A stretch of DNA of 64,000 bases from Arthrobacter sp. PsM3. GTDB taxonomy: Bacteria > Actinomycetota > Actinomycetes > Actinomycetales > Micrococcaceae. The notes under the pieces were generated by a model, which was not told the origin of the DNA, searched no databases, and saw only the letters and a program-made list of their open reading frames with translations. How positions within the stretch are numbered: position 1 is the first letter of the stretch; each line of letters begins with the position of its first letter. Where the stretch lies: contig NZ_JARUXE010000008.1 of NCBI RefSeq assembly GCF_030433895.1, positions 62,001 to 126,000 of the forward strand, written 5' to 3'. Shown here one piece after another: positions 2,954 to 33,718 of the stretch. Made by a program: the position numbers and the translations under genes.

Positions 2954-3427
2954 TCACTCCCCCGCGGCGGCGGCTTCCAGCAGCGGGAGCGTGCGGCCCT
3001 GGAAATGCGTGTTGAGCACAATCACCGAGGAGGAACGGAGCACCGTCCTGGTCGCAATCATGGCGTCGAGCACACGCTGCAGGTCCGGGTTGGAGCGGGC
3101 CGCAATGCGGGCCATCAGGTCCGAACTGCCGGAGACGGTATGGATTTCGATCAGTTCCGGGATCGCCGCGAGGGCCTCGACGACCGCGTCGTGCCCCAGG
3201 TCCTGATTGATCGTCAGGGAGCAGAAGGCGACCACGGGAAAACCGAAGCGGGCCGGATCCGGCTGCGGCACCCACGAGCCGATAACCCCGCTGTCCTGCA
3301 TCCGGTCCAGCCGTGACTGCACGGTGGCGCGCGCAACCTTGAGCACACGGGAGGCCTCCAACACCGAGGCGCGGGGCGAATCGGTGAAGAATCGGACAAT
3401 CTTCGCGTCCAGAGGGTCAACGTCCAT
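2954..3427 (-). CDS. Lrp/AsnC-family transcriptional regulator
   Basis: Feast/famine regulator of 157 aa: N-terminal winged helix (DPLDAKIVRFFTDSPRAS, then the recognition helix around VARATVQSRLDRMQ) and a C-terminal ligand-binding RAM domain (residues ~65-150, with VSGSSDLMARIAA). The ATG at 3427 is chosen because AGGAGG lies 8 bases upstream; an in-frame start at 3460 would add 11 residues but skips that site. It is divergent from the amino-acid permease at 3603, the usual layout for a local Lrp controlling an amino-acid transporter. The effector is not predictable from sequence. A weak C-terminal tail (LLEAAAAGE) ends the gene. Confidence 0.92.
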   Translation of the reverse strand: MDVDPLDAKIVRFFTDSPRASVLEASRVLKVARATVQSRLDRMQDSGVIGSWVPQPDPARFGFPVVAFCSLTINQDLGHDAVVEALAAIPELIEIHTVSGSSDLMARIAARSNPDLQRVLDAMIATRTVLRSSSVIVLNTHFQGRTLPLLEAAAAGE

Positions 3428-3602
3428 CAAATGTTCCTCCTGAAGCCGGGTTCGCATCACAAACCGTCGGGAATCCTGCGTTTCCTGCCATCAAACTGCC
3501 ACCATGTTCTCACGGCCGGCGCACCGCGACCCCGCTCCGTGGCGGTAAATTCAAGGGGTCCCACAAGGACCAATGATCCAAACCACACGAAGGTTCGCCA
3601 GC

Positions 3603-5015
3603 ATGACAATGAAGTCCACCGCAGAGCGCCCCGGCCTGAAACTCGGCCACAGCATGAAGCCACGCCAACTCACCATGATGGGACTCGGCAGTGCCATCGG
3701 CGCCGGCCTGTTCCTGGGCTCGGGGGCCGGCGTCAAGGCCGCCGGACCCGCCGTCCTGATTTCCTACCTCGTCGCCGGAACCCTGATCATCCTCGTGATG
3801 TGGGCCCTCGGCGAAATGGCCGCAGCCAACCCCAACAGCGGCGCGTTTTCCGTCTACGCCGCCAAGGCCATGGGCCGCACCGCGGGGGCCACCGTGGGCT
3901 GGCTCTGGTGGCTGCAGCTGGTGGTGGTCATCGCCGCCGAGGCCCTCGGCGCCGCAGCGCTGCTCTTCACGGTGTGGCCTGTGATCCCGGTCTGGGCCCT
4001 GTCCCTGATCTTCATGGTGCTGTTCACCGCGATCAACCTCGCCGGCGTTAAGAACTTCGGCGAGTTCGAGTTCTGGTTCGCCATCCTCAAGGTGGCCGCC
4101 ATCCTGCTGTTCCTGGGCATCGGGACCGCCCTGCTGCTGGGCTGGCTGCCGGATGTCGAGTCCCCCGGCCTGTCCAACATCACTGCCGACTTCGCCCCGG
4201 CCGGCCTGGGCGGCATCGCCACGGCGCTCTTCGTGGTCATCTTCGCTTTCGGCGGCACCGAGATTGTCAGTGTGGCCGCCGCCGAAACCGAGAACCCCCA
4301 GCACAGCGTGGCCCAGGCGATCCGCACCGTCGTGTGGCGGATCCTGGTCTTCTACATCGGCTCGGTCTTCGTCATTGCCGCCGTCCTTCCGTACACCTCG
4401 GACGCCCTGGCATCGCCCTTCGCCGGCGTCCTGGACCAGGCCCGCATCCCCGGCGCCGGTGCCGCCATCACCCTGGTGGCCGTCGTCGCGCTCCTCTCGG
4501 CCCTGAACGCGAACCTCTACGGCGCGTCCCGGATGGTCTACTCGCTGTCCGAACGCGGCGAGGCCCCCCGCTTCCTGTCGAAAGTGAACAAGTCACGGGT
4601 GCCGATGCTCGCCGTCGGCGTCTCCGTGGCCTTCGGGTTCCTGGCCGCCGTGCTCGAGCTGGTCTTTCCGGAGCGAATCCTTCCGGCGCTGTTCCAGCTG
4701 GTCGGCTCGACCTGCCTGATGGTCTGGGGCTCGGCGCTCGTGTCCCAGCTGATCCTGCGCCGCCGCGCCGACCGCGAGGGCACCACCCTCCCGCTGCGGA
4801 TGAAGGGCTTTCCGGGACTGACGATCTTCGGCCTGGTGCTCCTGGCCCTGATCTTCGCCGTCGGCTTCAGCAGCCCGGACAGCAGCAGGCAGCTCGTCAG
4901 CACCATCGTCCTGGTCGCCGGCATTGCGGCGGCCTGCTGGATCGGCGCCCGGCTGACCCGGAACCGCGCCGCGGAACCGGCCGGGCAGGCCGGGCCCGCC
5001 GACGCCGGACAGTAG
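3603..5015 (+). CDS. Amino acid permease (APC superfamily)
   Basis: Integral membrane amino acid/proton symporter of about 470 aa with some 12 hydrophobic segments. TM1 carries the APC signature GLGSAIGAGLFLGSGAGV at the substrate site, and the family motif continues with GEMAAANPNSGAFSVYA. The sequence resembles the AAT/GABA-permease branch; the substrate cannot be named. ATG 3603 has a GAAGG about 10 bases upstream; an alternative in-frame ATG at 3573 adds 10 residues. It is divergent from the Lrp regulator, which is its likely controller. The protein ends just before a short GC-rich repeat run at about 5011-5076. Confidence 0.92.
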   Translation: MTMKSTAERPGLKLGHSMKPRQLTMMGLGSAIGAGLFLGSGAGVKAAGPAVLISYLVAGTLIILVMWALGEMAAANPNSGAFSVYAAKAMGRTAGATVGWLWWLQLVVVIAAEALGAAALLFTVWPVIPVWALSLIFMVLFTAINLAGVKNFGEFEFWFAILKVAAILLFLGIGTALLLGWLPDVESPGLSNITADFAPAGLGGIATALFVVIFAFGGTEIVSVAAAETENPQHSVAQAIRTVVWRILVFYIGSVFVIAAVLPYTSDALASPFAGVLDQARIPGAGAAITLVAVVALLSALNANLYGASRMVYSLSERGEAPRFLSKVNKSRVPMLAVGVSVAFGFLAAVLELVFPERILPALFQLVGSTCLMVWGSALVSQLILRRRADREGTTLPLRMKGFPGLTIFGLVLLALIFAVGFSSPDSSRQLVSTIVLVAGIAAACWIGARLTRNRAAEPAGQAGPADAGQ

Positions 5016-5206: not shown

Positions 5207-6241
5207 ATGGATACACTTCCCGCGGCTTCCGGCGGCGCCGCCGAACCGCTGACACCTGCCCAGCTCCGCGAGCTCTATTCGCTGATGGTGGCGGTCCGCC
5301 ACCTCGATACCTCGGCCATCGCCTGGCAGCGCCAGGGGATCATCCCGGGCTATGCCCCGGAAATCGGCCAGGAGGCGGCCCAGGTGGGCAGCGGCTACGC
5401 CGTGGACACCACCCGGGACTTCGTCTTCCCGACCTACCGCGAGATGGGGGTGGCCCGCACCATGGGCATCGACATGGTGGCGTACATGTCCACCCACAAG
5501 GCCACCTGGCACGGCGGCCTGTACGACCCGCTGGAATCCCGGCTCGCCCCGATCCAGGCCGTCGTGGCCGGCTCCGTGCTGCACGCCGTCGGCTGGGCCC
5601 ACGGCCAGACCCTGGACGGCAAAGACGGCGTCGCGATGACGTACTTCGGCGACGGCGCTTCCTCCCAGGGCGATGTCCACGAGGCCCTGAACTTCGCCGC
5701 CGTGATGAAAGCCCCCGTGGTGTTCTTCGTCCAGAACAACGGCTGGGCCATCTCGGTCCCCACCGAACGCCAGGTGGCCGGCGGCTCCGTCGCCGCCCGT
5801 GCCGCCGGCTACGGCATGCCGGCACTGCAGATCGACGGCGACGACGTCGTCGCCGTCGTCGAGGCCACCAGGCGCGCCTTTGCGCATGCCCGCTCCGGCA
5901 GGGGCCCCGTGCTCATCGAAGCCATGACCTACCGCCGCGGCCCGCATTCGACCTCCGACGATCCCGGACGGTACCGCTCTCTCGATGAGGAGCGCGACGG
6001 CGCCGGCCTGGACCCGCTGCAGCGCTTCCGGCAGCGGCTGCTCGCCGACGGCGTCGCCGACGAGGCCTTCTTCGCCGGGGCACTCGCCGCGGCCAAGGCA
6101 GAGGAGGAACAGATCCGCACCGGCATCCAGGCCCTCGGCTCCCGCCCCGGCACCGAAATGTTTGACCTGGTCTTCCAGGAAACCACCCCTGCCCTGCAGG
6201 CCCAGGCCGCCAACTGGCGCGAGGAGTCCGAACATGTCTAA
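5207..6241 (+). CDS. 2-oxoacid dehydrogenase E1 component, alpha subunit
   Basis: Thiamine-diphosphate-binding half of an alpha2beta2 E1 that decarboxylates a 2-oxoacid (or cleaves acetoin) and passes the acyl group to a lipoyl domain. In 344 aa the ThDP motif is GDGASSQGDVHEALNF...VQNNGWAIS, and the phosphorylation-loop region RRGPHSTSDDPGRYR resembles branched-chain 2-oxoacid dehydrogenases more than pyruvate dehydrogenases. ATG 5207 is preferred because a TAGGGT box ends 7 bases before it. The stop overlaps the E1 beta start by 8 bases. The substrate is unproven: the gene set also resembles acetoin-cleaving systems. Confidence 0.9.
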   Translation: MDTLPAASGGAAEPLTPAQLRELYSLMVAVRHLDTSAIAWQRQGIIPGYAPEIGQEAAQVGSGYAVDTTRDFVFPTYREMGVARTMGIDMVAYMSTHKATWHGGLYDPLESRLAPIQAVVAGSVLHAVGWAHGQTLDGKDGVAMTYFGDGASSQGDVHEALNFAAVMKAPVVFFVQNNGWAISVPTERQVAGGSVAARAAGYGMPALQIDGDDVVAVVEATRRAFAHARSGRGPVLIEAMTYRRGPHSTSDDPGRYRSLDEERDGAGLDPLQRFRQRLLADGVADEAFFAGALAAAKAEEEQIRTGIQALGSRPGTEMFDLVFQETTPALQAQAANWREESEHV

Positions 6242-7277
6242 CTCGATTCTCGAAAGCGAAACTTCAGTGGAAAGCCCCGCAGCCGGCACCGTGATGTCCA
6301 TGCAGCAGGCCCTGAACCGGGCGCTCGACGAGGTGCTGGCGGAGAACCCGAAGACCCTGATTTTCGGCGAGGACTGCGGCCGGCTCGGCGGGGTCTTCCG
6401 GATCACCGACGGCCTGCAGGCCAAGCACGGCGAACAGCGCGTCTTTGACACCCCGCTCGCGGAGTCGGGGATCCTCGGCATGTCCGTGGGCCTGGCGATG
6501 GCCGGGTTCCACCCCATTCCCGAGGTGCAGTTCGACGGCTTCGCCTACCCGGCCATCAACCAGATCGTCTGCCAGATCGCCCGGATGAACTACCGCAGCC
6601 GCGGCACCCTGCCGATGCCCATCACGCTGCGGGTTCCCAGCTTCGGCGGTATCCGCGCCCCTGAACACCACGGCGAAAGCCTCGAGGCACTCTTCGCCCA
6701 TGTGCCGGGCCTGAAGGTGGTTTCGCCGTCGAACCCGCACGAGGCGTACCACCTGCTCAAGTACGCGGCGACGCGGCCGGACCCGGTGATCTTCATGGAG
6801 CCGAAGTCACGCTACTGGCAGAAGGGCGAGGTGGATGTTGCCCGTCCTGACCCGGCCGGCGGCTCCCCCACCGGCGCGAAGGTCATGCGCGAGGGCCGGC
6901 ACCTGACCCTCGTCGCATGGGGCGCCATGGTGGCCCGCTGCCTCCAGGTGGCCGAACTCGCCGCCGAGGACGGGATCGACATCGAGGTCCTGGACCTGCG
7001 CTGGCTCAAGCCGATCGACGCCGCGGCGCTGGCCGCCTCCGTGCGCAAGACACGGCGCGCCGTCGTCGTCCATGAGGCGCCGCTGACGTCCGGGCTGGGC
7101 GCCGAGGTGGCACAGCTGATCACCCAGGGCTGCTTCGACACCCTCAGGGCGCCGGTGGAACGCGTCACCGGCTTCGATGTCCCGTATCCCTCGGGCGACC
7201 TGGAAGACGAATACATCCCGAACATTGACCGGATCCTCTTCGGGATCCAGCGAGTATTGGAGTACAAACGTGGCTGA
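6234..7277 (+). CDS. 2-oxoacid dehydrogenase E1 component, beta subunit
   Basis: Beta subunit (347 aa) of the ThDP-dependent E1; it completes the active site with the alpha subunit encoded just upstream. Seen: MSMQQALNRALDEVL, FGEDCGRLGGVF, the DTPLAESGILGMSVGLAM block, QIARMNYRSRG and the C-terminal transketolase-like domain with LRWLKPIDAAAL and VHEAPLTSGLGAEVA. The protein starts about 20 residues before the conserved core. Its ATG lies inside the E1 alpha stop region (8-base overlap) and its stop overlaps the next GTG by 8 bases, so all three are translationally coupled. Confidence 0.92.
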   Translation: MSNSILESETSVESPAAGTVMSMQQALNRALDEVLAENPKTLIFGEDCGRLGGVFRITDGLQAKHGEQRVFDTPLAESGILGMSVGLAMAGFHPIPEVQFDGFAYPAINQIVCQIARMNYRSRGTLPMPITLRVPSFGGIRAPEHHGESLEALFAHVPGLKVVSPSNPHEAYHLLKYAATRPDPVIFMEPKSRYWQKGEVDVARPDPAGGSPTGAKVMREGRHLTLVAWGAMVARCLQVAELAAEDGIDIEVLDLRWLKPIDAAALAASVRKTRRAVVVHEAPLTSGLGAEVAQLITQGCFDTLRAPVERVTGFDVPYPSGDLEDEYIPNIDRILFGIQRVLEYKRG

Positions 7278-7599
7278 AATTTCCTTCCCGCTTCCGGACC
7301 TCGGCGAGGGCCTGATCGAGGCAACCGTGCTGGAATGGCTCGTGGGCCCGGGTGACCAGGTCGAGCGGAACCAGCCCCTCGTCGAGGTTGAAACCACGAA
7401 ATCAGCCGTGGAATTGCCCAGCCCGCAGGCAGGTAAAGTGGTGCGTATCCACGGCGGGCCCGGTGACAAAATCAATGTCGGCGAGCCCCTGATTGTGTTT
7501 GAGGTCCCGGACAACACGGCCGGCATCGTGGGCACGGTCCCGAAGGAAGAGGCACCGAAGCGCCGGGTCCGCCTGAGCGCCGTACTTGATGAGGACTGA
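7270..7599 (+). CDS. Free-standing lipoyl-domain protein (E2 without catalytic domain)
   Basis: A 109-aa protein consisting of one biotinyl/lipoyl attachment domain: FPLPDLGEGLIEATVLEW, the lipoyl-lysine hairpin VETTKSAVELPSP (Lys44) and GDKINVGEPLIVFE. After residue ~80 only a short charged tail follows: there is no E1/E3-binding domain and no acyltransferase domain with its HxxxDG motif. The stop codon is real and the next gene starts 4 bases later, so this is not an obvious frameshift of a longer E2. It should be lipoylated and accept the acyl group from the adjacent E1. No E3 gene follows. The closest described architecture is AcoC of acetoin systems, where a lipoyl domain is fused to an alpha/beta hydrolase. 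Confidence 0.85.
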   Translation: MAEISFPLPDLGEGLIEATVLEWLVGPGDQVERNQPLVEVETTKSAVELPSPQAGKVVRIHGGPGDKINVGEPLIVFEVPDNTAGIVGTVPKEEAPKRRVRLSAVLDED

Positions 7600-7603
7600 G
7601 ACC

Positions 7604-8431
7604 ATGAGCGGCAGACACACCGGCGAACGGCATTCCCACACCGTCGAGGGCACCGACCCCCAGCTGTTTGTCGGTGTGCATGAACCCGCGTCCGACGCCG
7701 GACTGCGCCCGGTGCTGCTGCTGCACGGCTTTTCCTCCTCCTCCAAACTCAACTGGGAGGACACCGGCTGGCTGACCGCGCTGCTGGAGGCCGGCCGCCG
7801 CGTCATCACGGTGGACCTGCCCGGCCACGGCCGCAGCGGGGCGCCCGAGGACATGGACTCTTACACGCCCAGCAGGATCCGCGCTGACCTGCTGCAGATC
7901 GCGTTCGACGCCGGGGTCCGCCCCCTGCGCGACGGCGACCCGTCCAGCGGGCTGGACCTGATCGGCTATTCGCTCGGTTCCCGGCTCGCCTGGGAGTTCG
8001 GCGCCACCCAGCACGAGCTGGTGCACCGGCTGGTCCTGGGCGGTCCGAACGTCGCCGACCCGCTGGCTGAATTCGATCTGGTCGCCGCGCAGCGCTACCT
8101 GGCCGACGGCACCCCGATCACCGACGCGTCCACCGCCGGGCTTCTGAAGATGGCCCAGATGCTGCCCAGCAACAACATCTTCTCGCTGCTGTCCCTGGTG
8201 GAGGCCATCAAGAACGAGCCGTTCGATCCCGCCGAGGCGGTGCCGCACATGCCGATGCTGCTGGTCGCCGGTGAGAAGGATGAGCGCGCCGCGTCAATGC
8301 CGGAACTGGCCGCCCTGGGCGCGAAGGCCGGTGCCATGGTCGAACAGCTGGTCCTGCCGGGCCGGAACCACACCAACGCGATCACCAGCCGCGCCTTCAA
8401 GCAGGGAGCCATCAGCTTCCTCGCCGTCTGA
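7604..8431 (+). CDS. Alpha/beta hydrolase of the lipoyl-E1 operon (AcoC-like C-terminal half)
   Basis: Alpha/beta-hydrolase-fold protein of 275 aa. Seen: oxyanion region LLLHGFSSSSKLNW, the strand-turn VDLPGHGRSG, nucleophile elbow LIGYSLGSR (Ser), a probable acid in VAGEKDERAA and the catalytic histidine in GRNHTNAI. It begins 4 bases after the lipoyl protein stops, so it belongs to the same transcript. In acetoin dehydrogenase AcoC proteins a hydrolase-fold domain replaces the usual E2 acyltransferase; here the two parts are separate genes. It could transfer or hydrolyse the acyl-lipoyl thioester, but that role is inference. Confidence 0.85.
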   Translation: MSGRHTGERHSHTVEGTDPQLFVGVHEPASDAGLRPVLLLHGFSSSSKLNWEDTGWLTALLEAGRRVITVDLPGHGRSGAPEDMDSYTPSRIRADLLQIAFDAGVRPLRDGDPSSGLDLIGYSLGSRLAWEFGATQHELVHRLVLGGPNVADPLAEFDLVAAQRYLADGTPITDASTAGLLKMAQMLPSNNIFSLLSLVEAIKNEPFDPAEAVPHMPMLLVAGEKDERAASMPELAALGAKAGAMVEQLVLPGRNHTNAITSRAFKQGAISFLAV

Positions 8432-11345: not shown

Positions 11346-12701
11346 TTAGTGCTTTGCCGCGTCAGCGGGCGTGTGGTGCACGACGCCGAGCGGGCGGCCC
11401 TTGGTTTCCCCGGCGAGGAGGACACCGACGGCGGAGATGACACAGAGGATCATGATGTAGATGCCGATGGAACCGGTCCACCCGGTGCCCTGCAGCAGGG
11501 CCTCCGCGATGGTGGCTGCGAACGCACCGCCCAGGATGGCACCGAAGGCGTAGCCGATGGAGATGCCCGAGTAGCGCACGTTCGCCGGGAACATCTCGGC
11601 GTACATCGCGGACATCGGGCCGTAGGACAGGCCCAGGCCGATGGTGAGGACGAACAGCGCGACACCGTAAAGCACGATGTTCTTGGTGTCGATCAGGGCG
11701 AACATCGGGATCATCCAGGCGAAGACAATGCCGTAGCCGATCAGGAAGGTCTTGACGCGGCCGATCTTGTCCGAGAGCCAGCCGCCGATCAGGGTGAAGA
11801 TCAGCCAGCCGAAGGAAGCCAGCGTGGTGGCCAGCAGGATCTGCGCGACGGGCATCTTCAGGGACTTGGTGGCGTAGGAGATGAAGAACGCGATCAGGAG
11901 GTAGCCGGCGGCATTGTTGCCGATGAAGATCATCGTCGAGTAAAGGACGGCCTTCTTGTGCTTCCGGATGAGCTCGCCCAGGGGCGCTTTGCTCTCCTCC
12001 TTGCGCTCGGAGAGTTCCTTGAAGACCGGGCTCTCGGCAACGGCGCGGCGGATCAGGTACCCGACGACGATCAGCACGATCGAGAGCAGGAACGGCACAC
12101 GCCAGCCCCAGGACGCGAAGTCCTCCTTGGACATGGACGTGTTGAGGAAGTACAGCAGGCCGGTGGCGAGGATCATACCCACCGGAACACCGATCTGCGG
12201 GTACGCGCCGAACAGGCCGCGCTTGCTCATGGGAGCGTGCTCGACGGCCATCAGGGCGGCGCCGCCCCATTCACCGCCGGCGGAGAAGCCCTGGATGACG
12301 CGGAGCAGGATCAGCAGGACCGGAGCCCAGAAGCCGATCTGGGCGTAGGTCGGCAGCATGCCGATCAGCGCCGTGGCGGCACCCATCATGATGAGGGTGA
12401 AGACCAGCATGGCCTTGCGGCCGAGGCGGTCACCCAGGTGGCCGGCGACGACGGCGCCAAGCGGGCGGAACAAGAAGCTGATGCCGATGAGGGCAAAGGA
12501 CAGGATCTGCGCCAGGCCCGGGTTGGAGGCGTTCAGCGGTGCCAGGAACAGCGGTGACAGCAGCGTTGCTGTCAGCTGCGCGAAGATGAAGAAGTCGTAC
12601 CACTCGATGGTGGTCCCGACCAGGGTGCCCGCGAGGACCTTGCGTTCCTCGTGCTTGCTGCTGGGGCCCGCCTCAGAATCGACACTTGAAGTTGCGGTCA
12701 T
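11346..12701 (-). CDS. MFS transporter, metabolite:H+ symporter (MHS) family
   Basis: A 451-aa, 12-TM secondary transporter. Seen: the MHS opening TLVGTTIEWYDFFIF, the MFS loop GHLGDRLGRKAML between TM2 and TM3, and the second-half equivalent GGWLSDKIGRVKTFL; GFSAGGEWGGAALM is also typical. MHS proteins import organic acids with protons; next to hpaB/hpaC/hpaE the likely substrate is an aromatic acid such as hydroxyphenylacetate, by context only. ATG 12701 has a GGAG about 6 bases upstream. A TetR-type palindrome lies in its promoter region (12776-12793). Confidence 0.9.
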   Translation of the reverse strand: MTATSSVDSEAGPSSKHEERKVLAGTLVGTTIEWYDFFIFAQLTATLLSPLFLAPLNASNPGLAQILSFALIGISFLFRPLGAVVAGHLGDRLGRKAMLVFTLIMMGAATALIGMLPTYAQIGFWAPVLLILLRVIQGFSAGGEWGGAALMAVEHAPMSKRGLFGAYPQIGVPVGMILATGLLYFLNTSMSKEDFASWGWRVPFLLSIVLIVVGYLIRRAVAESPVFKELSERKEESKAPLGELIRKHKKAVLYSTMIFIGNNAAGYLLIAFFISYATKSLKMPVAQILLATTLASFGWLIFTLIGGWLSDKIGRVKTFLIGYGIVFAWMIPMFALIDTKNIVLYGVALFVLTIGLGLSYGPMSAMYAEMFPANVRYSGISIGYAFGAILGGAFAATIAEALLQGTGWTGSIGIYIMILCVISAVGVLLAGETKGRPLGVVHHTPADAAKH

Positions 12702-12892: not shown

Positions 12893-14347
12893 TCAGTCGG
12901 CGCGGTGCAGGAAGTCCCGGACCCGGGCGCGGACGGGCGCGCGGTCGTAGCCGTTGACCATGGCCGCGGCCATCCTCACTGGATCGCCGAAGAAAAAATA
13001 CTCGTACAGCGACTGCCGGCCGGAGAACCCGGAGACCGAAGCGTCGAAGGCCAGCTTGAACAGCCGGACGCGCTCGGGGCCGGTGAGCGACTTGCCCTGA
13101 AGGTACATCTCGATGTCGGCCCGGGCATCGCTGTTGACATCGGCCTCGCCGGGCAGGGCCATCAGCCCGGAGGCGCAGAACTTCCGGATGATCTGCGGGA
13201 AACGCTGGGCGACTTTCGGGTACCAGTTGCGGGCGGCGTTTAGCGTGGACCACTTCGGCAGCATCACGCCGGCCTCGTTAAGCGCCGCGTCCACCTCGGA
13301 GGCCCGGACCAGCGCCCTGCCGATTTCGACGTCGACGATCAGTTCGGCGATGTCCTCCTGGATGTGCTGGAAACCGTCGATGCCGATCGAGTCGGCGAGT
13401 TCGGAGGCCAGGCCCAGGAAGAACTCGCTCTTGGCGATGGTCCTGGTGACCACCTGGTGCGTCATGAGGGCGCCGGCGCCGGTTTCGGAGTAGAAGCCAT
13501 TGCACAGCTGCGGGTTGCCGAGCATGAAGATGCGCTCGTTGGGGACAAAGACATTGTCGAAGATCGCGACGGCGTCCATTTCCTCGTAGCGCGACGCGAG
13601 CGGCTCGTCGTGGGTGCTGCCGCCGTTGTACAGCGAGGTGCGGCACAGGTAGCGCAGGCCCGGCGTGTCGTTGGGGATGGCGAAGGCGTAGGAGTAGGGG
13701 GCGTCCTCCGGCGTGCCGCGGAGCACGGTGGAGGGAAAGACGAGGAGCTCGTCCGCGATCGGGGCGATGGTGGCCAGCATGCGGGCGCCACTGATGACGA
13801 TGCCGTCCCCGCGCTCCTCGACAATCCGGGCCGACAGCTGTCCACCGAGCTGTTCGGAGCCGGAGACGGAGCGGTTGGCCTGCGGCGGGATCAGGGTGTG
13901 CGTGGCAAGGACATCGTTTTCACGGGCCCACTCGTAGTAGTTGCGGATGTTTTCGCCGAACTTGGGGTCAGCCTGGGAAAACCACTTTCCGGCCGTGCTG
14001 AGGGCGGTGAGCGAGGAGTTCATGTAGTCCCCGGAGCGGCCCAGGAAACCGTTGGAGGACTCGGCCCAGGTGGAAATGGCACGGCGGCGGCGTTCAAGGT
14101 CCGCGACCGTCTTCGGCACCAGGAAGGAGGCGTTCACCAGGTCTCCCGTGGTGGGCGAGGTGTACGTCAGTGCGGCCTGGTACCTGGGGTCGTGCTGCAT
14201 GTCGAAGAGCTTGGCATAGGAGCGTGCCACGTTCCGGAAGGCGGGGTGCTCGGCGATCTTCTCGCTGACAACCTCCCCGTCGATCACCACATGGGGTGAC
14301 ATTGCGTTGAGTCTGTCCAGGTACTGCTGTCCGGTGCGGATTCCCAT
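12893..14347 (-). CDS. hpaB: 4-hydroxyphenylacetate 3-monooxygenase, oxygenase component
   Basis: FADH2-dependent oxygenase of 484 aa that hydroxylates 4-hydroxyphenylacetate (or a related phenol) to the catechol. Seen: start MGIRTGQQYLDRLN, the flavin/substrate segments TYTSPTTGDLVNASFLVPK and YYEWARENDVLATHTLIPPQ, then DEPLASRYEEMDAVAIFDNVF and VFVPNERIF; length matches the family. It needs reduced flavin from HpaC, encoded 75 bases upstream in the same direction. Exact phenolic substrate is uncertain because HpaB-like enzymes also act on chlorophenols and other phenols; the neighbouring hpaE supports the homoprotocatechuate route. Confidence 0.93.
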   Translation of the reverse strand: MGIRTGQQYLDRLNAMSPHVVIDGEVVSEKIAEHPAFRNVARSYAKLFDMQHDPRYQAALTYTSPTTGDLVNASFLVPKTVADLERRRRAISTWAESSNGFLGRSGDYMNSSLTALSTAGKWFSQADPKFGENIRNYYEWARENDVLATHTLIPPQANRSVSGSEQLGGQLSARIVEERGDGIVISGARMLATIAPIADELLVFPSTVLRGTPEDAPYSYAFAIPNDTPGLRYLCRTSLYNGGSTHDEPLASRYEEMDAVAIFDNVFVPNERIFMLGNPQLCNGFYSETGAGALMTHQVVTRTIAKSEFFLGLASELADSIGIDGFQHIQEDIAELIVDVEIGRALVRASEVDAALNEAGVMLPKWSTLNAARNWYPKVAQRFPQIIRKFCASGLMALPGEADVNSDARADIEMYLQGKSLTGPERVRLFKLAFDASVSGFSGRQSLYEYFFFGDPVRMAAAMVNGYDRAPVRARVRDFLHRAD

Positions 14348-14422: not shown

Positions 14423-14959
14423 TCAGAGCAGCTCTTCCATGCCCAGCAGGCTTTCCGGGATGGTGGTGAAGGTGCCGTTCGCGAAGGCCAGCGCATCGCC
14501 GTTGCGGTAGTTGAAGTCCACTACTTCGCCGATATACAGCGTGTGGTCGCCGCCGTCGTACGCCGCCCAGGGCTTGCACTCAAAGTAGGCAAGCACATGG
14601 GAGAGCCGCGGAGCCGTTCCGCCCTCGACCCAGAGCGGCTCGGGTCCGGGACGGCCGGCGAAGTGCATCGCGAGCTGCCGCTGCTCCGCACCAAGGATGT
14701 TGACCGTGAAGGGCCGGCCGGCGAGCTCGTCGTGCGCCTTCGCGGTGCGGGCGATGCTGACCAGCACCAGGGGCGGGTCCATGGATACGGAGGTGAAGGA
14801 ATTGACCGTAATGCCATGGCGCTTCGAAGCGCCGTCGAAGGTCACGATCGCGACGCCGGTGGCGAACCGGCCCAGGCTCCCGCGGAAGTACTGGGCCCGG
14901 GGCAAGGACGTGCGGCCCGGAACCACCGGAGCAGGCTCGGTGCGGGGCTTGGCAATCAT
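14423..14959 (-). CDS. hpaC: Flavin reductase, HpaC type
   Basis: NADH:flavin reductase of 178 aa supplying FADH2 to HpaB. Seen: FRGSLGRFATGVAIVTF, then HGITVNSFTSVSMDPPLVLVSI (flavin binding) and the C-terminal DHTLYIGEVVDFNY. ATG 14959 is chosen because AAGGGATC lies just upstream; the longer in-frame reading to 15118 runs through the operator and promoter and is rejected. First gene of hpaC-hpaB, transcribed divergently from the iclR-type regulator across the double operator at 15018-15052. Confidence 0.92.
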   Translation of the reverse strand: MIAKPRTEPAPVVPGRTSLPRAQYFRGSLGRFATGVAIVTFDGASKRHGITVNSFTSVSMDPPLVLVSIARTAKAHDELAGRPFTVNILGAEQRQLAMHFAGRPGPEPLWVEGGTAPRLSHVLAYFECKPWAAYDGGDHTLYIGEVVDFNYRNGDALAFANGTFTTIPESLLGMEELL

Positions 14960-15017
14960 CGTTGATCCCTTGCGTCTGGTGATGGCTGTTTGGTGGGGGT
15001 GCGTTCCGTCACACTCT

Positions 15018-15052
15018 GTTCTATAATCGAACACATCGTTCCCATATAGAAC
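15018..15052. promoter_or_regulatory. Tandem IclR-type operator between hpaC and the regulator
   Basis: Two 15-bp palindromes of the form GTTC-N7-GAAC lie at 15018-15032 and 15038-15052, their centres 20 bp (two helical turns) apart; the outer halves GTTCTATA and TATAGAAC also mirror each other. A TATAGA-like box for hpaC overlaps them. IclR-family proteins typically bind such pairs. Confidence 0.75.
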
Positions 15053-15131
15053 GCTAGCGCACTGTGAGGCAGAGCACAAGGGCCGCCCGGTGCATCCCGG
15101 ATCCACGACCGCCCGCACCTAGGATGGACCA

Positions 15132-16000: not shown

Positions 16001-16072
16001 ATGGCGCAGCTTCGCAGCATTGCCCTGCTGGACACGCTCCCCGCAGATGCAAAGGATGATTCCCATGGCTGA
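16001..16072 (+). CDS. 23-residue leader ORF overlapping hpaE
   Basis: A short ORF (MAQLRSIALLDTLPADAKDD...) with a strong GAGGAG ribosome site 5 bases before its ATG. Its TGA lies 6 bases inside hpaE (start 16065), so translation of the leader probably feeds or gates hpaE translation. No known family. It could also be a decayed gene end, but the good ribosome site argues for real translation. Confidence 0.5.
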   Translation: MAQLRSIALLDTLPADAKDDSHG

Positions 16073-17570
16073 GCACTACGTCCCGGACGACCTCCCCACC
16101 CGCATCCGCCACTACATCAACGGCGAATTCGTTGACTCCGTCAGCGGCAGGACCTTCGACGTGCTGGACCCGGTGTCCAACACCAACTACGCCACCGCCG
16201 CCGCCGGCCAGAAAGAGGACATCGACCTCGCCGTCGCCGCCGCGCGCGAGGCCTTCACCGCCGGCCCGTGGCCGCGGATGAAGCCGCGGGAACGGGCCCG
16301 CATCCTGAACAGGATCGCCGACGCCGTCGAGGCCCAGGAGACCCGCCTGGCGCAACTGGAGACCTTCGACACCGGGCTGCCGATCACCCAGGCCAGGGGC
16401 CAGGCCCTCCGGGCCGCGGAGAACTTCCGCTTCTTCGCGGACCTCATTGTCGCCCAGTTCGACGACGCCATGAAGGTCCCCGGCGCCCAGATCAACTACG
16501 TCAACCGCAAGCCGATCGGCGTCGCCGGCCTCATCACGCCGTGGAACACCCCGTTTATGCTCGAGTCCTGGAAGCTCGCCCCGGCGCTGGCCACCGGCAA
16601 CTGCGTGGTCCTGAAGCCCGCCGAATTCACGCCGCTCTCCGCCTCGCTCTGGGCCCGGATCTTCCAGGACGCCGGCCTGCCCGACGGCGTCTTCAACCTC
16701 GTCAACGGCCTCGGCGAGGAAGCCGGCGACGCCCTCGTCAAACACCCCGATGTGCCGCTGATCTCCTTCACCGGAGAAACCACCACCGGCAGGACGATCT
16801 TCCGCAATGCCGCGGAGAACCTCAAAGGCCTGTCCATGGAGCTCGGCGGCAAGAGCCCCGCGATCATCTTCGCCGACGCCGACCTCGACGCCGCAATCGA
16901 CTCCACCCTGTTCGGGGTCTTCTCGCTCAACGGCGAACGCTGCACCGCCGGTTCCCGCATCCTCGTCCACCAGGACATCTACGAGGAATTCTGCGGGAAG
17001 TACGCCGCCCGGGCCAAAAACATCGTGGTCGGTGACCCGCACGATCCGGAGACCGAGGTCGGCGCCCTGGTCCACCCCGAGCACTACGCCAAGGTGGCCT
17101 CCTACGTGGAGATCGGCAAAACCGAGGGCCGGCTGCTCGCCGGCGGCGGACGCCCCGAGGGGCTTCCGACCGGCAATTACATTGCCCCGACGGTGTTCGC
17201 CGACGTCGCCCCGGACGCGCGGATCTTCCAGGAGGAGATCTTCGGCCCGGTCGTGGCGATCACGCCGTTCGCGGACGACGCCGAGGCGCTGGCTTTGGCG
17301 AACAACACGAAGTACGGGCTGGCCGGCTACGTCTGGACCAACGACCTGACGCGGGCGCACAACTTCTCGCAGAACCTGGAAGCCGGCATGGTCTGGCTCA
17401 ACAGCCACAACGTGCGGGACCTGCGCACCCCGTTCGGCGGCGTCAAGGCCTCCGGGCTCGGCCACGAGGGCGGCTACCGCTCGATCGACTTCTACACCGA
17501 CCAGCAGGCCGTCCACATCACCCTCGGCACCGTCCACACCCCGAGGTTCGGCGCCTCGGCGGCGCAGTAG
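16065..17570 (+). CDS. hpaE: 5-carboxymethyl-2-hydroxymuconate semialdehyde dehydrogenase
   Basis: NAD-dependent aldehyde dehydrogenase of 501 aa in the homoprotocatechuate meta-cleavage pathway, acting after ring opening. Seen: GLITPWNTPFMLESWKLAPAL, SFTGETTTGRTIF (cofactor loop), the catalytic glutamate in SMELGGKSPA, the catalytic cysteine in NGERCTAGSR and EEIFGPVVA. HpaE assignment rests on overall resemblance and on hpaB/hpaC next door; other betaine/semialdehyde dehydrogenases are the alternative. ATG 16065 has AAAGGAT upstream. hpaD, hpaF, hpaG, hpaH and hpaI are not in the window, so the pathway must be completed elsewhere. Confidence 0.85.
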   Translation: MAEHYVPDDLPTRIRHYINGEFVDSVSGRTFDVLDPVSNTNYATAAAGQKEDIDLAVAAAREAFTAGPWPRMKPRERARILNRIADAVEAQETRLAQLETFDTGLPITQARGQALRAAENFRFFADLIVAQFDDAMKVPGAQINYVNRKPIGVAGLITPWNTPFMLESWKLAPALATGNCVVLKPAEFTPLSASLWARIFQDAGLPDGVFNLVNGLGEEAGDALVKHPDVPLISFTGETTTGRTIFRNAAENLKGLSMELGGKSPAIIFADADLDAAIDSTLFGVFSLNGERCTAGSRILVHQDIYEEFCGKYAARAKNIVVGDPHDPETEVGALVHPEHYAKVASYVEIGKTEGRLLAGGGRPEGLPTGNYIAPTVFADVAPDARIFQEEIFGPVVAITPFADDAEALALANNTKYGLAGYVWTNDLTRAHNFSQNLEAGMVWLNSHNVRDLRTPFGGVKASGLGHEGGYRSIDFYTDQQAVHITLGTVHTPRFGASAAQ

Positions 17571-23933: not shown

Positions 23934-25064
23934 ATGAGCAACGAGCCCGCCATCACCCCAGCACCGGCACCAGCCCCCTCGCACGAATCCCGGATCCACG
24001 GATGCCTGCTGGGCGGCGCGCTCGGTGATTCGCTGGGATACGCGGTCGAATTCGACGAGATCTCCACCATCCGCGTGAAGTTCGGCCCGGAAGGGCTGCA
24101 GGATTTTTCAGCGCTCGACGGCGGCAGCCACTTCTCCGACGACACGCAGCTCACGCTGTACACCGTGGACGGGCTGCTGGAGGCGCTGGAGTGGGCCAAC
24201 TCGGGCGTGGGCGCGGACACCAACGCGTGCCTGTGGCTCGCCTACCTGCGCTGGCTCGGCACCCAGGGCGTGCCGGTTCCGGAGGCGGCGCCGTTCCAGC
24301 CGCCCCGCTGGATCGATTCCCATGAGGTCCTCAGGCACCGCCGCGCGCCGGGGAACGCCTGCCTGAGCGGACTGGCCACCGGGGAGATGGGAACCTTCTA
24401 CCGTCCGGTCAACCCGGACTCCAAGGGTTGCGGCACGGTGATGCGCTCAGCGCCGTTCGGCCTGGTCCCCTACATCGAGGCCGGCGCCGTCTATAAGATC
24501 AGCGCGGACGCGGCCTCGCTGACCCACGGGCACCCCGCGGCCCGGCAGAGCGCCGGGGTGTTCAGCCTCGTCATCCATGCCCTGACCGCCGGACGCGGCC
24601 TGCGCGAAGCAGCACAGTTCGCGCTCGGGGAACTGGACGCAGGCCACCTGCGCAAGGGCGAAGTTCCCGACCCGGACCTCGTGGCGCGGCTTGAGGCGGC
24701 GTTGCGCCTCGGCGGCGCGGGAGAACGGCTGGGCCCCGAGGAACTGGTCCGGGAACTCGGCGAAGGCTGGGTGGCCGAGGAGGCTCTCGCCGTCGCACTG
24801 TATGCGGTCCTCGCCACGGCGCCGGATCCGGCCGCCGGTCATCGGGCGGCGGCCGCCGGTCATCCCGAGGCCCACTTCCGCGCGGCGATCGCGCTCGCGG
24901 TGAACCACAGCGGCGACAGCGATTCCACGGCGTCCATTGCCGGCAACATCCTGGGCACGTTCTACGGTGAGGACTGCCTTCCGGCGCAGTGGCTCGCCGC
25001 GCTCGAGGCCCCGGAGGTCATCCGGGGCATGGCGTCGCGGCTGGCGGCCGTCACCGGCGCCTGA
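23934..25064 (+). CDS. ADP-ribosylglycohydrolase family protein
   Basis: A 376-aa DraG-like protein that would remove ADP-ribose from a protein or small-molecule substrate, using two Mg ions. Metal-ligand motifs are seen near both ends: GALGDSLGYAVEF and HFSDDTQLTL at the start, and NHSGDSDSTASIAGNILG at the end. A Pro/Ala stretch (residues 5-16) precedes the domain. A TAAAAT box ends 8 bases before the ATG and there is no ribosome site, so it is probably leaderless. No partner ADP-ribosyltransferase is in the window, so the substrate is unknown. Confidence 0.9.
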   Translation: MSNEPAITPAPAPAPSHESRIHGCLLGGALGDSLGYAVEFDEISTIRVKFGPEGLQDFSALDGGSHFSDDTQLTLYTVDGLLEALEWANSGVGADTNACLWLAYLRWLGTQGVPVPEAAPFQPPRWIDSHEVLRHRRAPGNACLSGLATGEMGTFYRPVNPDSKGCGTVMRSAPFGLVPYIEAGAVYKISADAASLTHGHPAARQSAGVFSLVIHALTAGRGLREAAQFALGELDAGHLRKGEVPDPDLVARLEAALRLGGAGERLGPEELVRELGEGWVAEEALAVALYAVLATAPDPAAGHRAAAAGHPEAHFRAAIALAVNHSGDSDSTASIAGNILGTFYGEDCLPAQWLAALEAPEVIRGMASRLAAVTGA

Positions 25065-32389: not shown

Positions 32390-33718
32390 GTGAGTACCTC
32401 AGCTGGCTGGGAGCGTCCCCGCACGTCCCTGTACACCGACCATTACGAGCTGACCATGCTGCAGGCCGCGCTGCATTCCGGCGCCGCCCACCGCAAGTCA
32501 GTGTTCGAGGCCTTTACCCGGCGCCTGCCGGACGGGCGCCGCTACGGCATTGTGGGCGGCACCGGCCGGCTGCTCGAGGGCATCGCGGACTTCCGCTTCG
32601 GCGACACCGAAATCGACTTCCTGCGCCGGACCAAGGTGGTCAACGAGGAGACCTTGGACTATCTGGCCGGGTTTTCCTTCTCCGGCGACATCTGGGGCTA
32701 CGCGGAGGGCGAAGCGTACTTCCCCAACTCCCCCATCCTCATCGTCGAATCCACCTTCGCCGAGGCCTGCATCCTCGAGACGTACATCCTCTCGATCCTC
32801 AACCATGACAGCGCCATCGCCTCCGCGGCCTCGCGCATGATCACCGCGGCCGGCAGCCGGCCCTGCGTGGAGATGGGATCGCGCCGCACCCAGGAGGAAT
32901 CCGCCGTCTCGGCCGCCCGGGCAGCGATCATCGCCGGCTTCGACAGCACCTCAAACCTTGAGGCGGGGCTGCGCTACGGGCTGAAGACGGTCGGCACGGC
33001 CGCGCATTCCTTCACCCTCCTGCACGACACGGAACGCGAGGCGTTCGAGGCGCAGATCGCCTCGATGGGCGCCGGAACCGCGCTGCTGGTGGACACCTAC
33101 GACGTCGAGGCGGCGGTGCGCACCGCCGTCGAACTGGGCGGCGACAAACTCGGTGCGGTTCGTCTGGACTCCGGCGACCTCGTGGCCCAGGCGCAGTGGG
33201 TCCGCCGGCTCCTCGACGAGCTGGGCAACGAGCGGACCCGCATCATCGTCACCTCCGACCTGGACGAGTTCGCCATCGCCGCCCTGCAGTCCGCACCGGT
33301 GGACTCCTACGGCGTTGGGACTTCACTCGTGACCGGCTCCGGCGCGCCGACGGCCAGCATGGTCTACAAGCTGGTCAGCCGCACGGACGACGACGGCGAT
33401 TTCGTTTCCGTCGCCAAGGCCGCCAAGAACAAGACCAGCAAGGGCGGACGCAAGTACGCGCTGCGCAAGCTCAACGAGCGCGGCACGGCCACCCAGGAGA
33501 TCGTCGGAATCGGCCGCCGCCCCGAGGACGACGGCAACGACCGGCCGCTGCTTCACCAGTTCGTCAAGAACGGCGAACTGGTGCCCGGCTGGACCGGCGC
33601 GGAGGGCGTGCTGCGTGCCCGCAAGCGCCACGCGGACACCATGAAAGAGCTTCCCGCTGTCGTGAACCGGCTGCAGCGCGGCGAAGCAGCCATCCCCACC
33701 ATCTACGAGGAGAACTGA
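32390..33718 (+). CDS. pncB: Nicotinate phosphoribosyltransferase
   Basis: Joins nicotinate to PRPP in the NAD salvage pathway. 442 aa: SLYTDHYELTMLQAAL, IVGGTGRLLEGI, ASAASRMITAAG, the active-site block EMGSRRTQEESAVSAARAA (with the His/Arg equivalent region), GVRLDSGDLVAQA-like VRLDSGDLVAQAQWVR and GVGTSLVTGSGAPT. The start is a leaderless GTG 6 bases after TAGAGT. Translationally linked to pncA, which starts in the stop codon (TGATG). No obvious NrtR palindrome lies in its promoter. Confidence 0.95.
   Translation: MSTSAGWERPRTSLYTDHYELTMLQAALHSGAAHRKSVFEAFTRRLPDGRRYGIVGGTGRLLEGIADFRFGDTEIDFLRRTKVVNEETLDYLAGFSFSGDIWGYAEGEAYFPNSPILIVESTFAEACILETYILSILNHDSAIASAASRMITAAGSRPCVEMGSRRTQEESAVSAARAAIIAGFDSTSNLEAGLRYGLKTVGTAAHSFTLLHDTEREAFEAQIASMGAGTALLVDTYDVEAAVRTAVELGGDKLGAVRLDSGDLVAQAQWVRRLLDELGNERTRIIVTSDLDEFAIAALQSAPVDSYGVGTSLVTGSGAPTASMVYKLVSRTDDDGDFVSVAKAAKNKTSKGGRKYALRKLNERGTATQEIVGIGRRPEDDGNDRPLLHQFVKNGELVPGWTGAEGVLRARKRHADTMKELPAVVNRLQRGEAAIPTIYEEN

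Follow-up and report, generated by a model that had tools for sequence, protein, structure and literature searches.

An Arthrobacter operon that couples a 2-oxoacid dehydrogenase E1 to a free lipoyl protein and a hydrolase, and its possible place in tyrosine catabolism

A stretch of 64,000 nucleotides from Arthrobacter sp. PsM3 (assembly GCF_030433895.1, contig NZ_JARUXE010000008.1, positions 62,001 to 126,000; "the window" in what follows) carries an operon in which the two E1 subunits of a 2-oxoacid dehydrogenase are followed not by an E2 acyltransferase but by a free-standing lipoyl domain and a hydrolase. This tight operon, at 5207-8431 on the forward strand, codes in order for E1 alpha, E1 beta, a lipoyl-only protein of 109 amino acids (here called LIP), and an alpha/beta hydrolase (HYD). 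We see an even chance that the unit is an E2-less 2-oxoacid dehydrogenase for aromatic 2-oxo acids, most likely 4-hydroxyphenylpyruvate, with HYD releasing free 4-hydroxyphenylacetate without coenzyme A (CoA). In this family of enzymes, E1 decarboxylates a 2-oxo acid and acylates a lipoyl domain, and the lipoate complexes that oxidize a 2-oxo acid or acetoin pass the acyl group to CoA through E2, to our knowledge. Because the unit has no E2, HYD is the natural acceptor enzyme. A hydrolase also makes sense because an E2 would not yield the free acid that enters the homoprotocatechuate (hpa) pathway.

A four-gene operon without an E2

The first gene (5207-6241, ATG start) codes for E1 alpha, a thiamine diphosphate (ThDP) 2-oxoacid decarboxylase subunit of 344 amino acids. 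It matches PF00676 (E1_dh) with 256.5 bits, and a GDG...QNN motif, which we take to be the ThDP motif, can be read directly in it. On TIGR03181, the model of pyruvate dehydrogenase (PDH) E1 alpha, type x, it scores 393.4 bits, just under the cut-off of 411.35, and its closest PDB match is 1w85_A. E1 beta (6234-7277, 347 amino acids, ATG start) overlaps the end of E1 alpha by 8 bases and matches PF02779 (Transket_pyr, 143 bits) and PF02780 (Transketolase_C, 133 bits); its closest PDB matches are 1um9_B and 3duf_B. LIP (7270-7599, GTG start) in turn overlaps the end of E1 beta by 8 bases, and its sole Pfam match is PF00364 (Biotin_lipoyl, 69.2 bits), with Lys44 in the motif ETTKS as the putative lipoyl lysine. 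HYD (7604-8431, 275 amino acids), a presumed acyl-thioester hydrolase, begins 4 bases past LIP and matches PF00561 (Abhydrolase_1, 61.4 bits). The two marks of a 2-oxoacid dehydrogenase complex, a ThDP-dependent E1 alpha/beta pair and a lipoyl domain with a lipoyl-lysine motif, are both present, as judged from Pfam and from PDB relatives.

An earlier interpretation made from the DNA alone (the sequence-only reading) had described the same four coupled genes and had remarked that no E2 belongs to them. Reading frames and Pfam matches bear out both points. The contig of the window (C186, in a genome of 4.69 Mb) has no match to the E2 core, PF00198, and all six matches in the genome lie on other contigs.

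LIP ends in a conserved C-terminal tail of 29 residues (81-109) that is mostly disordered in AlphaFold, 20 residues of the tail region having a predicted local distance difference test score (pLDDT) below 50. The tail is as constrained as the folded part (nonsynonymous to synonymous differences, pN/pS, 0.197 versus 0.212) and is perhaps a docking peptide. In HYD, for which the AlphaFold mean pLDDT is 83.7, Ser123, Asp226, and His256 are invariant in 9 aligned orthologues and are presumed to form the catalytic triad.

Conservation of the unit

A scan of genomes with an alignment of LIP gave 292 confirmed matches, of which the 80 best were taken as loci. Because the loci were selected by their LIP match, the set necessarily leaves out genomes that lack LIP. 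They belong to Cryobacterium (11), Sinomonas (9), Arthrobacter, Pseudarthrobacter, Paenarthrobacter, Zhihengliuella, and further Micrococcaceae. The split gene order, which the sequence-only reading had proposed to look for in other genomes, recurs throughout: HYD follows LIP in 80/80 (77 by script, within 200 bases, and L238, L262, and L294 by eye from the same table), and all four genes are shown in 79, the remaining locus (L293) ending at a contig edge before E1 alpha. In every one of the 80 loci, LIP begins with GTG, shares 8 bases with the end of E1 beta, and has the lipoyl lysine in place; its length is 109 amino acids in 77 and 110 in three. LIP without HYD was not seen in these loci. 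In the Cryobacterium genus (that of genome G657), 11 of 57 genomes carry a HYD orthologue (E 1e-70), and E1 beta and LIP lie directly upstream of it in all 11.

LIP orthologues of 77-99% identity occur in 10 of 248 genomes of the order. Since all other listed lipoyl matches (E 1e-20 or better) reach at most 58%, the arrangement is not due to chance. The E1s of the LIP-type operons form one clade, separate from four paralogues of the host (100/100 support in a tree of 43 rows). Among plasmid records, 18 matched HYD, all below 60%, and 368 matched LIP, 367 of them below 60%; the annotated ones among the 20 matches listed are E2s, apart from one "hypothetical protein." The four genes are a real, old unit.

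Neighbors from the homoprotocatechuate pathway

Genes for HpaB, a flavin reductase, an IclR-type regulator, and HpaE are located 4.5-9 kb downstream of the operon in the window. HpaB, the oxygenase of 4-hydroxyphenylacetate 3-monooxygenase (12893-14347, reverse strand), scores 576.8 bits on TIGR02309 (cut-off 480.2), and HpaE, the 5-carboxymethyl-2-hydroxymuconate semialdehyde dehydrogenase (16020-17570, forward strand), scores 670.3 bits on TIGR02299 (cut-off 638.4). The flavin reductase (14423-15118, reverse strand; true start probably inside) is possibly HpaC, with 118 bits on FerA, 109 on StyB, and 103 on Thermus HpaC, all under the cut-offs. A metabolite/H+ symporter of the major facilitator superfamily (11346-12701, reverse strand; TIGR00883, 395 bits, under the cut-off of 443) stands beside these genes.

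In relatives, hpa genes adjoin HYD itself. A same-strand run of HYD, an HpaG-like gene, a regulator, HpaE, and HpaD, called by identity to the proteins of L120 and the window, is found in 9/9 Sinomonas loci, in Zhihengliuella, in L242, and in L120. In the last of these, HpaD scores 452 bits (cut-off 321) and HpaE 641 (cut-off 638). The HpaG-like protein of L120, of the fumarylacetoacetate (FAA)-hydrolase/RraA kind, is over the cut-off of an FAA-hydrolase model and under those of HpaG, and the regulator between it and HpaE, presumably GntR, has its best NCBIfam match under the cut-off. Within reach, meaning about 5 kb past HYD and less at contig ends, at least one hpa gene is present in 43 of the 80 loci, an aminotransferase instead in nine (all Cryobacterium), and neither in 28.

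Two controls were drawn from other loci. No hpa gene occurs at the four ordinary E1-E2 operons of the host genome, and clear hpa genes occur in 2 of the 24 loci of weaker HYD homologues (L313 and L318, out of L083-L091 and L313-L327), a single 39% FAA match in L086 being left aside. With hpa genes as the frequent neighbors, acetoin, one of the substrates that the sequence-only reading had considered, is not supported. The same reading had likened E1 to branched-chain enzymes; that similarity stands (TIGR03181 and PDB matches), and the branched-chain substrate drawn from it is not supported. A further count covered 98 genomes, 96 of them among 150 genomes of the host genus. HpaB is at the locus in 23 of the 34 that have E1 (E1-plus) and in 6 of the 61 that do not (E1-minus), with three more undecided. 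Four of these six E1-minus genomes (G004, G016, G049, and G086) keep LIP remnants covering 35-76% of the full protein.

A proposed reaction

From the homology of E1 and of the lipoyl domain, the following reaction can be proposed. The substrate of E1 alpha/beta would be an arylpyruvate, most likely the 4-hydroxyphenylpyruvate that comes from tyrosine; E1 would decarboxylate it and reductively acylate the lipoyl group on Lys44 of the free carrier LIP. HYD would then hydrolyze the arylacetyl-dihydrolipoyl thioester to free 4-hydroxyphenylacetate, the form accepted by HpaB/C, and the general E3 of the cell would reoxidize LIP with NAD+. Neither CoA nor an E2 acyltransferase would take part. Among its steps, the hpa pathway is not known to include an E1, a lipoyl protein, or a serine hydrolase, and in this the unit differs from hpa clusters.

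A 4-hydroxyphenylpyruvate oxidase activity was reportedly described by Blakley in 1977. That study, on tyrosine catabolism by an Arthrobacter, is cited in PMC3534580 and PMC2991359. The first of these papers has Arthrobacter sp. Rue61a growing on tyrosine, with an annotated route through 4-hydroxyphenylacetate and homoprotocatechuate (PMC3534580); the second has A. arilaitensis using tyrosine, with the gene for 4-hydroxyphenylpyruvate oxidase not located (PMC2991359). Tentatively, and at somewhat less than even chances, we suggest that the unit is a new lipoate-dependent system, consisting of E1, a free carrier, and an acyl-lipoyl hydrolase and using NAD+ without CoA or E2, and that it is the missing step of the homoprotocatechuate tyrosine route, or the enzyme behind the reported oxidase activity, in Arthrobacter and its kin.

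Comparison with known lipoyl systems

The unit is like the 2-oxoacid dehydrogenase complexes (PDH, branched-chain, and 2-oxoglutarate) in its ThDP-type E1 alpha/beta and in a lipoyl domain with a lipoyl-lysine turn. It is unlike them in that it has neither an E2 core nor a subunit-binding domain, that its lipoyl domain is free, and that HYD stands in the place of E2. An acetoin dehydrogenase with AcoC likewise has a lipoyl domain and a hydrolase-fold protein within one E1 operon, and the AcoC family (NF011457) presumably has the architecture of a lipoyl domain plus an alpha/beta hydrolase. It had been suggested in the sequence-only reading that LIP and HYD are a split AcoC, which the family-model scores do not support. 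The two are separate proteins, reach 51.5 and 37.7 bits on NF011457 against a cut-off of 307, and have hpa rather than aco neighbors. Since HYD scores more on the MenH model (52.9 bits) than on that of AcoC, nothing ties it to AcoC specifically.

GcvH and LbpA are, like LIP, single small lipoyl proteins. LIP differs from both in being close to E2 lipoyl domains of the host (54-59% identity to two of them over 70-74 residues) and in sitting with an E1, whereas LbpA, in the passages of PMC6067878 that concern it, resembles GcvH and belongs to sulfur oxidation. The same 2018 paper lists only five characterized lipoate-dependent complexes (PMC6067878). Our search of the literature recognized no paper on an operon such as this one, and phrases such as phenylpyruvate dehydrogenase may still be in print.

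A precedent for acyl-lipoyl hydrolysis by a serine hydrolase is the human enzyme ABHD11, shown in PMC12643935 to be an acyl-lipoyl (glutaryl-lipoyl) thioesterase that takes the acyl group off the E2-bound lipoyl group. The likeness of HYD to it is proposed for function. As portrayed there, ABHD11 has a role in repair, in human cells, whereas hydrolysis by HYD would be the productive step. The best reading remains the one put forward from the DNA, a route that depends on the lipoyl group and has the hydrolase at its end.

Other genes around the operon

An Lrp/AsnC-type regulator, presumably that of the E1-LIP-HYD operon, is encoded divergently from it (2954-3427, reverse strand; Pfam AsnC_trans_reg, 51.5 bits). 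Such a gene lies within reach in 76 of the 80 loci, and an Lrp-type gene also adjoins two ordinary E1-E2 operons of the host genome (L079 and L080). An amino-acid permease (3573-5015, forward strand; Pfam AA_permease, 321 bits) precedes E1 alpha as an optional member that could not be found at the Cryobacterium loci or at some of the other loci. Its best NCBIfam match is TIGR01773, a gamma-aminobutyrate (GABA) permease (405 bits, under the cut-off of 678), and the PheP and AroP models give about 248 bits.

Also beside the unit, at 749-2703, are nadA and the gene for a Nudix regulator of the NrtR type (PF21906). nadA is in reach in most loci of the genus and also stands beside HYD in two other genera of the family (L308 and L311). 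The same window has a nicotinate phosphoribosyltransferase (646 bits, over the cut-off) and an ADP-ribosylglycohydrolase-like protein (under the cut-off), which between them occupy 32390-33715 and 23934-25061.

Retention of HYD without E1 and LIP, and other difficulties

A number of findings weigh against the role proposed here, and the fate of the unit within the genus provides several of them. HYD has a match in 149 of the 150 genus genomes, the remaining one being 68% complete, while E1 alpha (E 1e-90) is present in 81, and at least a large part of LIP (E 1e-30) in 89. When 68 E1-less loci were compared with 35 E1-plus loci (a part of those existing), the former proved to be mostly nadA/permease-HYD. 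The Lrp gene is whole in 34/34 E1-plus loci, and among 67 E1-minus loci it is whole in four and partial in one, one locus of each kind having been set aside as cut by a contig end.

In 29 of the 68 E1-less loci, an intact HYD has pieces of LIP ahead of it; the 13 shortest, each under 30% of the full length, may be chance matches. In L125 (genome G143, 5475-7181), a single frame of 569 amino acids joins the permease to the C-terminal 76 residues of LIP, a deletion having fused the transporter to most of the lipoyl domain. In L124 (G120, 5684-7813), E1 alpha and E1 beta each lie in several frames, with LIP, HYD, the permease, and Lrp intact, which is either a fresh stage of decay or a sequencing error. 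HYD is also kept in L145 (G027) and L160 (G086), where the permease, E1, and Lrp were not found at the locus and LIP is gone in the first and in pieces in the second. At least seven changes of state are required on the tree of nadA and HYD, four of them forced by starred branches, and six on the nadA tree alone, counts that cannot separate gain from loss. The LIP remnants before intact HYD, together with the broken E1 genes of L124, show that losses did occur.

Selection on HYD is undiminished after the loss of E1 and LIP. Its median ratio of nonsynonymous to synonymous substitution rates (dN/dS), taken from pairs with a synonymous difference (pS) of 0.1-0.6, is 0.091 in an E1-less clade of 41 rows, 0.116 in the other E1-less genomes, and 0.132 in the E1-plus ones; for NadA the values in the same three groups are 0.059, 0.080, and 0.098. 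HYD thus has a use without E1 and LIP. HpaB is at the locus in none of the 39 covered rows of the 41-row clade, and the retention of HYD by E1-less species that have no hpa genes nearby is a further point against the proposed role. With HYD kept without E1 and LIP in so many relatives, the view of it as the dedicated partner of LIP is weakened and not supported.

The neighborhood is a second source of difficulty. Besides the 28 loci with neither kind of telling neighbor, the Cryobacterium loci have no hpa gene in reach. The aminotransferase found in nine of those 11 (L228-L238) bears the NCBIfam name histidinol-phosphate transaminase, and a 45% relative of it adjoins an ordinary E1-E2 operon of the host (L081). 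For these two reasons it is weak evidence and was rejected as proof of an aromatic substrate; an aromatic role for this histidinol-phosphate-type enzyme is a guess. A histidinol-phosphate-type aminotransferase is likewise found in L121 (2823-3881), with a gene for an ATP-binding cassette (ABC) transporter ATPase between it and the unit. Five loci elsewhere in the family have HYD without E1 and LIP, and one of them, L310 (genome G673), has hpa genes within reach, HYD itself heading the HpaG-like gene, the regulator, HpaE, and HpaD; L308, L309, L311, and L312 have none in reach. Heading such a run may be the other role of HYD. When the association of E1 with HpaB is corrected for kinship, only five independent pairs can be taken on supported branches, with a median sign-test p of 1 (NadA+HYD tree) or 0.5 (NadA tree), and relatedness accounts for much of the association.

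Finally, the E1 sequence by itself does look to be of the PDH/branched-chain type, and a fold search with HYD returned the general esterase/lipase fold. Neither Rue61a nor A. arilaitensis is among the titles of the best 80 loci, a comparison of titles and not an aimed check for the unit.

Alternative explanations

One alternative, unlikely in our view and still to be taken seriously, is that E1 and LIP are only half of a complex, completed in trans by the E2 core and E3 from another 2-oxoacid dehydrogenase. Acyl-CoA would then be made, and HYD would be a thioesterase on acyl-CoA or would have some other role. Such an E2 could be supplied by the host, since four of its six E2 cores sit in ordinary E1a-E1b-E2 operons (contigs C111, C161, C164, and C131). 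The fifth, on C88, is in a 607-amino acid frame with two lipoyl domains. The sixth, on C113 (64672-65364), is in an OdhA-like frame of 1304 amino acids that also has an E1 match and has no lipoyl match, the mirror image of LIP with its lipoyl domain and missing E2 core. E2 cores are present in 150/150 genus genomes, with 4-8 in each of the 144 genomes whose completeness is 90% or more, and four outgroup genomes that carry the operon have 5-6 each, which tells against the E2-less reading. There is an actinobacterial precedent for such sharing of parts in C. glutamicum, where OdhA functions together with E2-E3 from PDH (PMC7568260), and the retention of HYD without LIP would fit a soluble acyl-CoA substrate. 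LIP, however, has no subunit-binding domain for docking, whereas each of the four operon E2s of the host carries lipoyl, E3_binding, and core domains, and the position of HYD after LIP in all loci seen stays unexplained. The number of E2 cores neither helps nor hurts this account much, for it is the same in genomes with and without E1 (means of 5.7 and 5.8, respectively).

It is quite unlikely, though worth stating, that HYD stands outside the E1-LIP reaction altogether. It would then be an old esterase gene of the Micrococcaceae or of hpa clusters, beside which E1 and LIP settled, and LIP would work with another partner or as a redox carrier. HYD does occur without E1 and LIP in those genomes of the genus that lack E1 and in other genera of the family, by nadA (L308 and L311) or by hpa genes (L310). 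Single-lipoyl proteins with other roles also exist, such as LbpA of sulfur oxidation in the passages already cited (PMC6067878). What this account must face is that LIP was never seen without HYD in the 80 loci, and that the HYD of the Cryobacterium genus was seen only with E1 beta and LIP.

Distinctly improbable, in our judgment, is that the substrates are branched-chain or other aliphatic 2-oxo acids, converted to free short acids, with the hpa genes as mere neighbors. The same-strand hpa run behind HYD in several genera, and also in the E1-less L310, argues against it, as do the absence of hpa genes from all four ordinary E1-E2 operons and the presence in the host genome of three E1-E2 operons with related E1s (E1 alpha identity 40-43%). 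The similarity of E1 to PDH and branched-chain enzymes, the Lrp regulator at the operon, the loci without a telling neighbor in reach, and an HpaB link that is not significant once paired would all agree with it. That LIP is a frameshifted or truncated E2 (a frameshifted full E2 in relatives was what the sequence-only reading had named as a refuting find) is ruled out by the start, overlap, and length kept in 80/80 loci and by HYD lying 4 bases after LIP in the window.

Significance

If the reading of the unit as an E2-less dehydrogenase for aromatic 2-oxo acids is true, a conserved set of E1, carrier, and hydrolase would show that E2 can be replaced by hydrolysis, giving the free acid. For the biology of Arthrobacter and its relatives, the unit is a candidate for the tyrosine-catabolic step whose gene was not located in the A. 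arilaitensis genome paper (PMC2991359).

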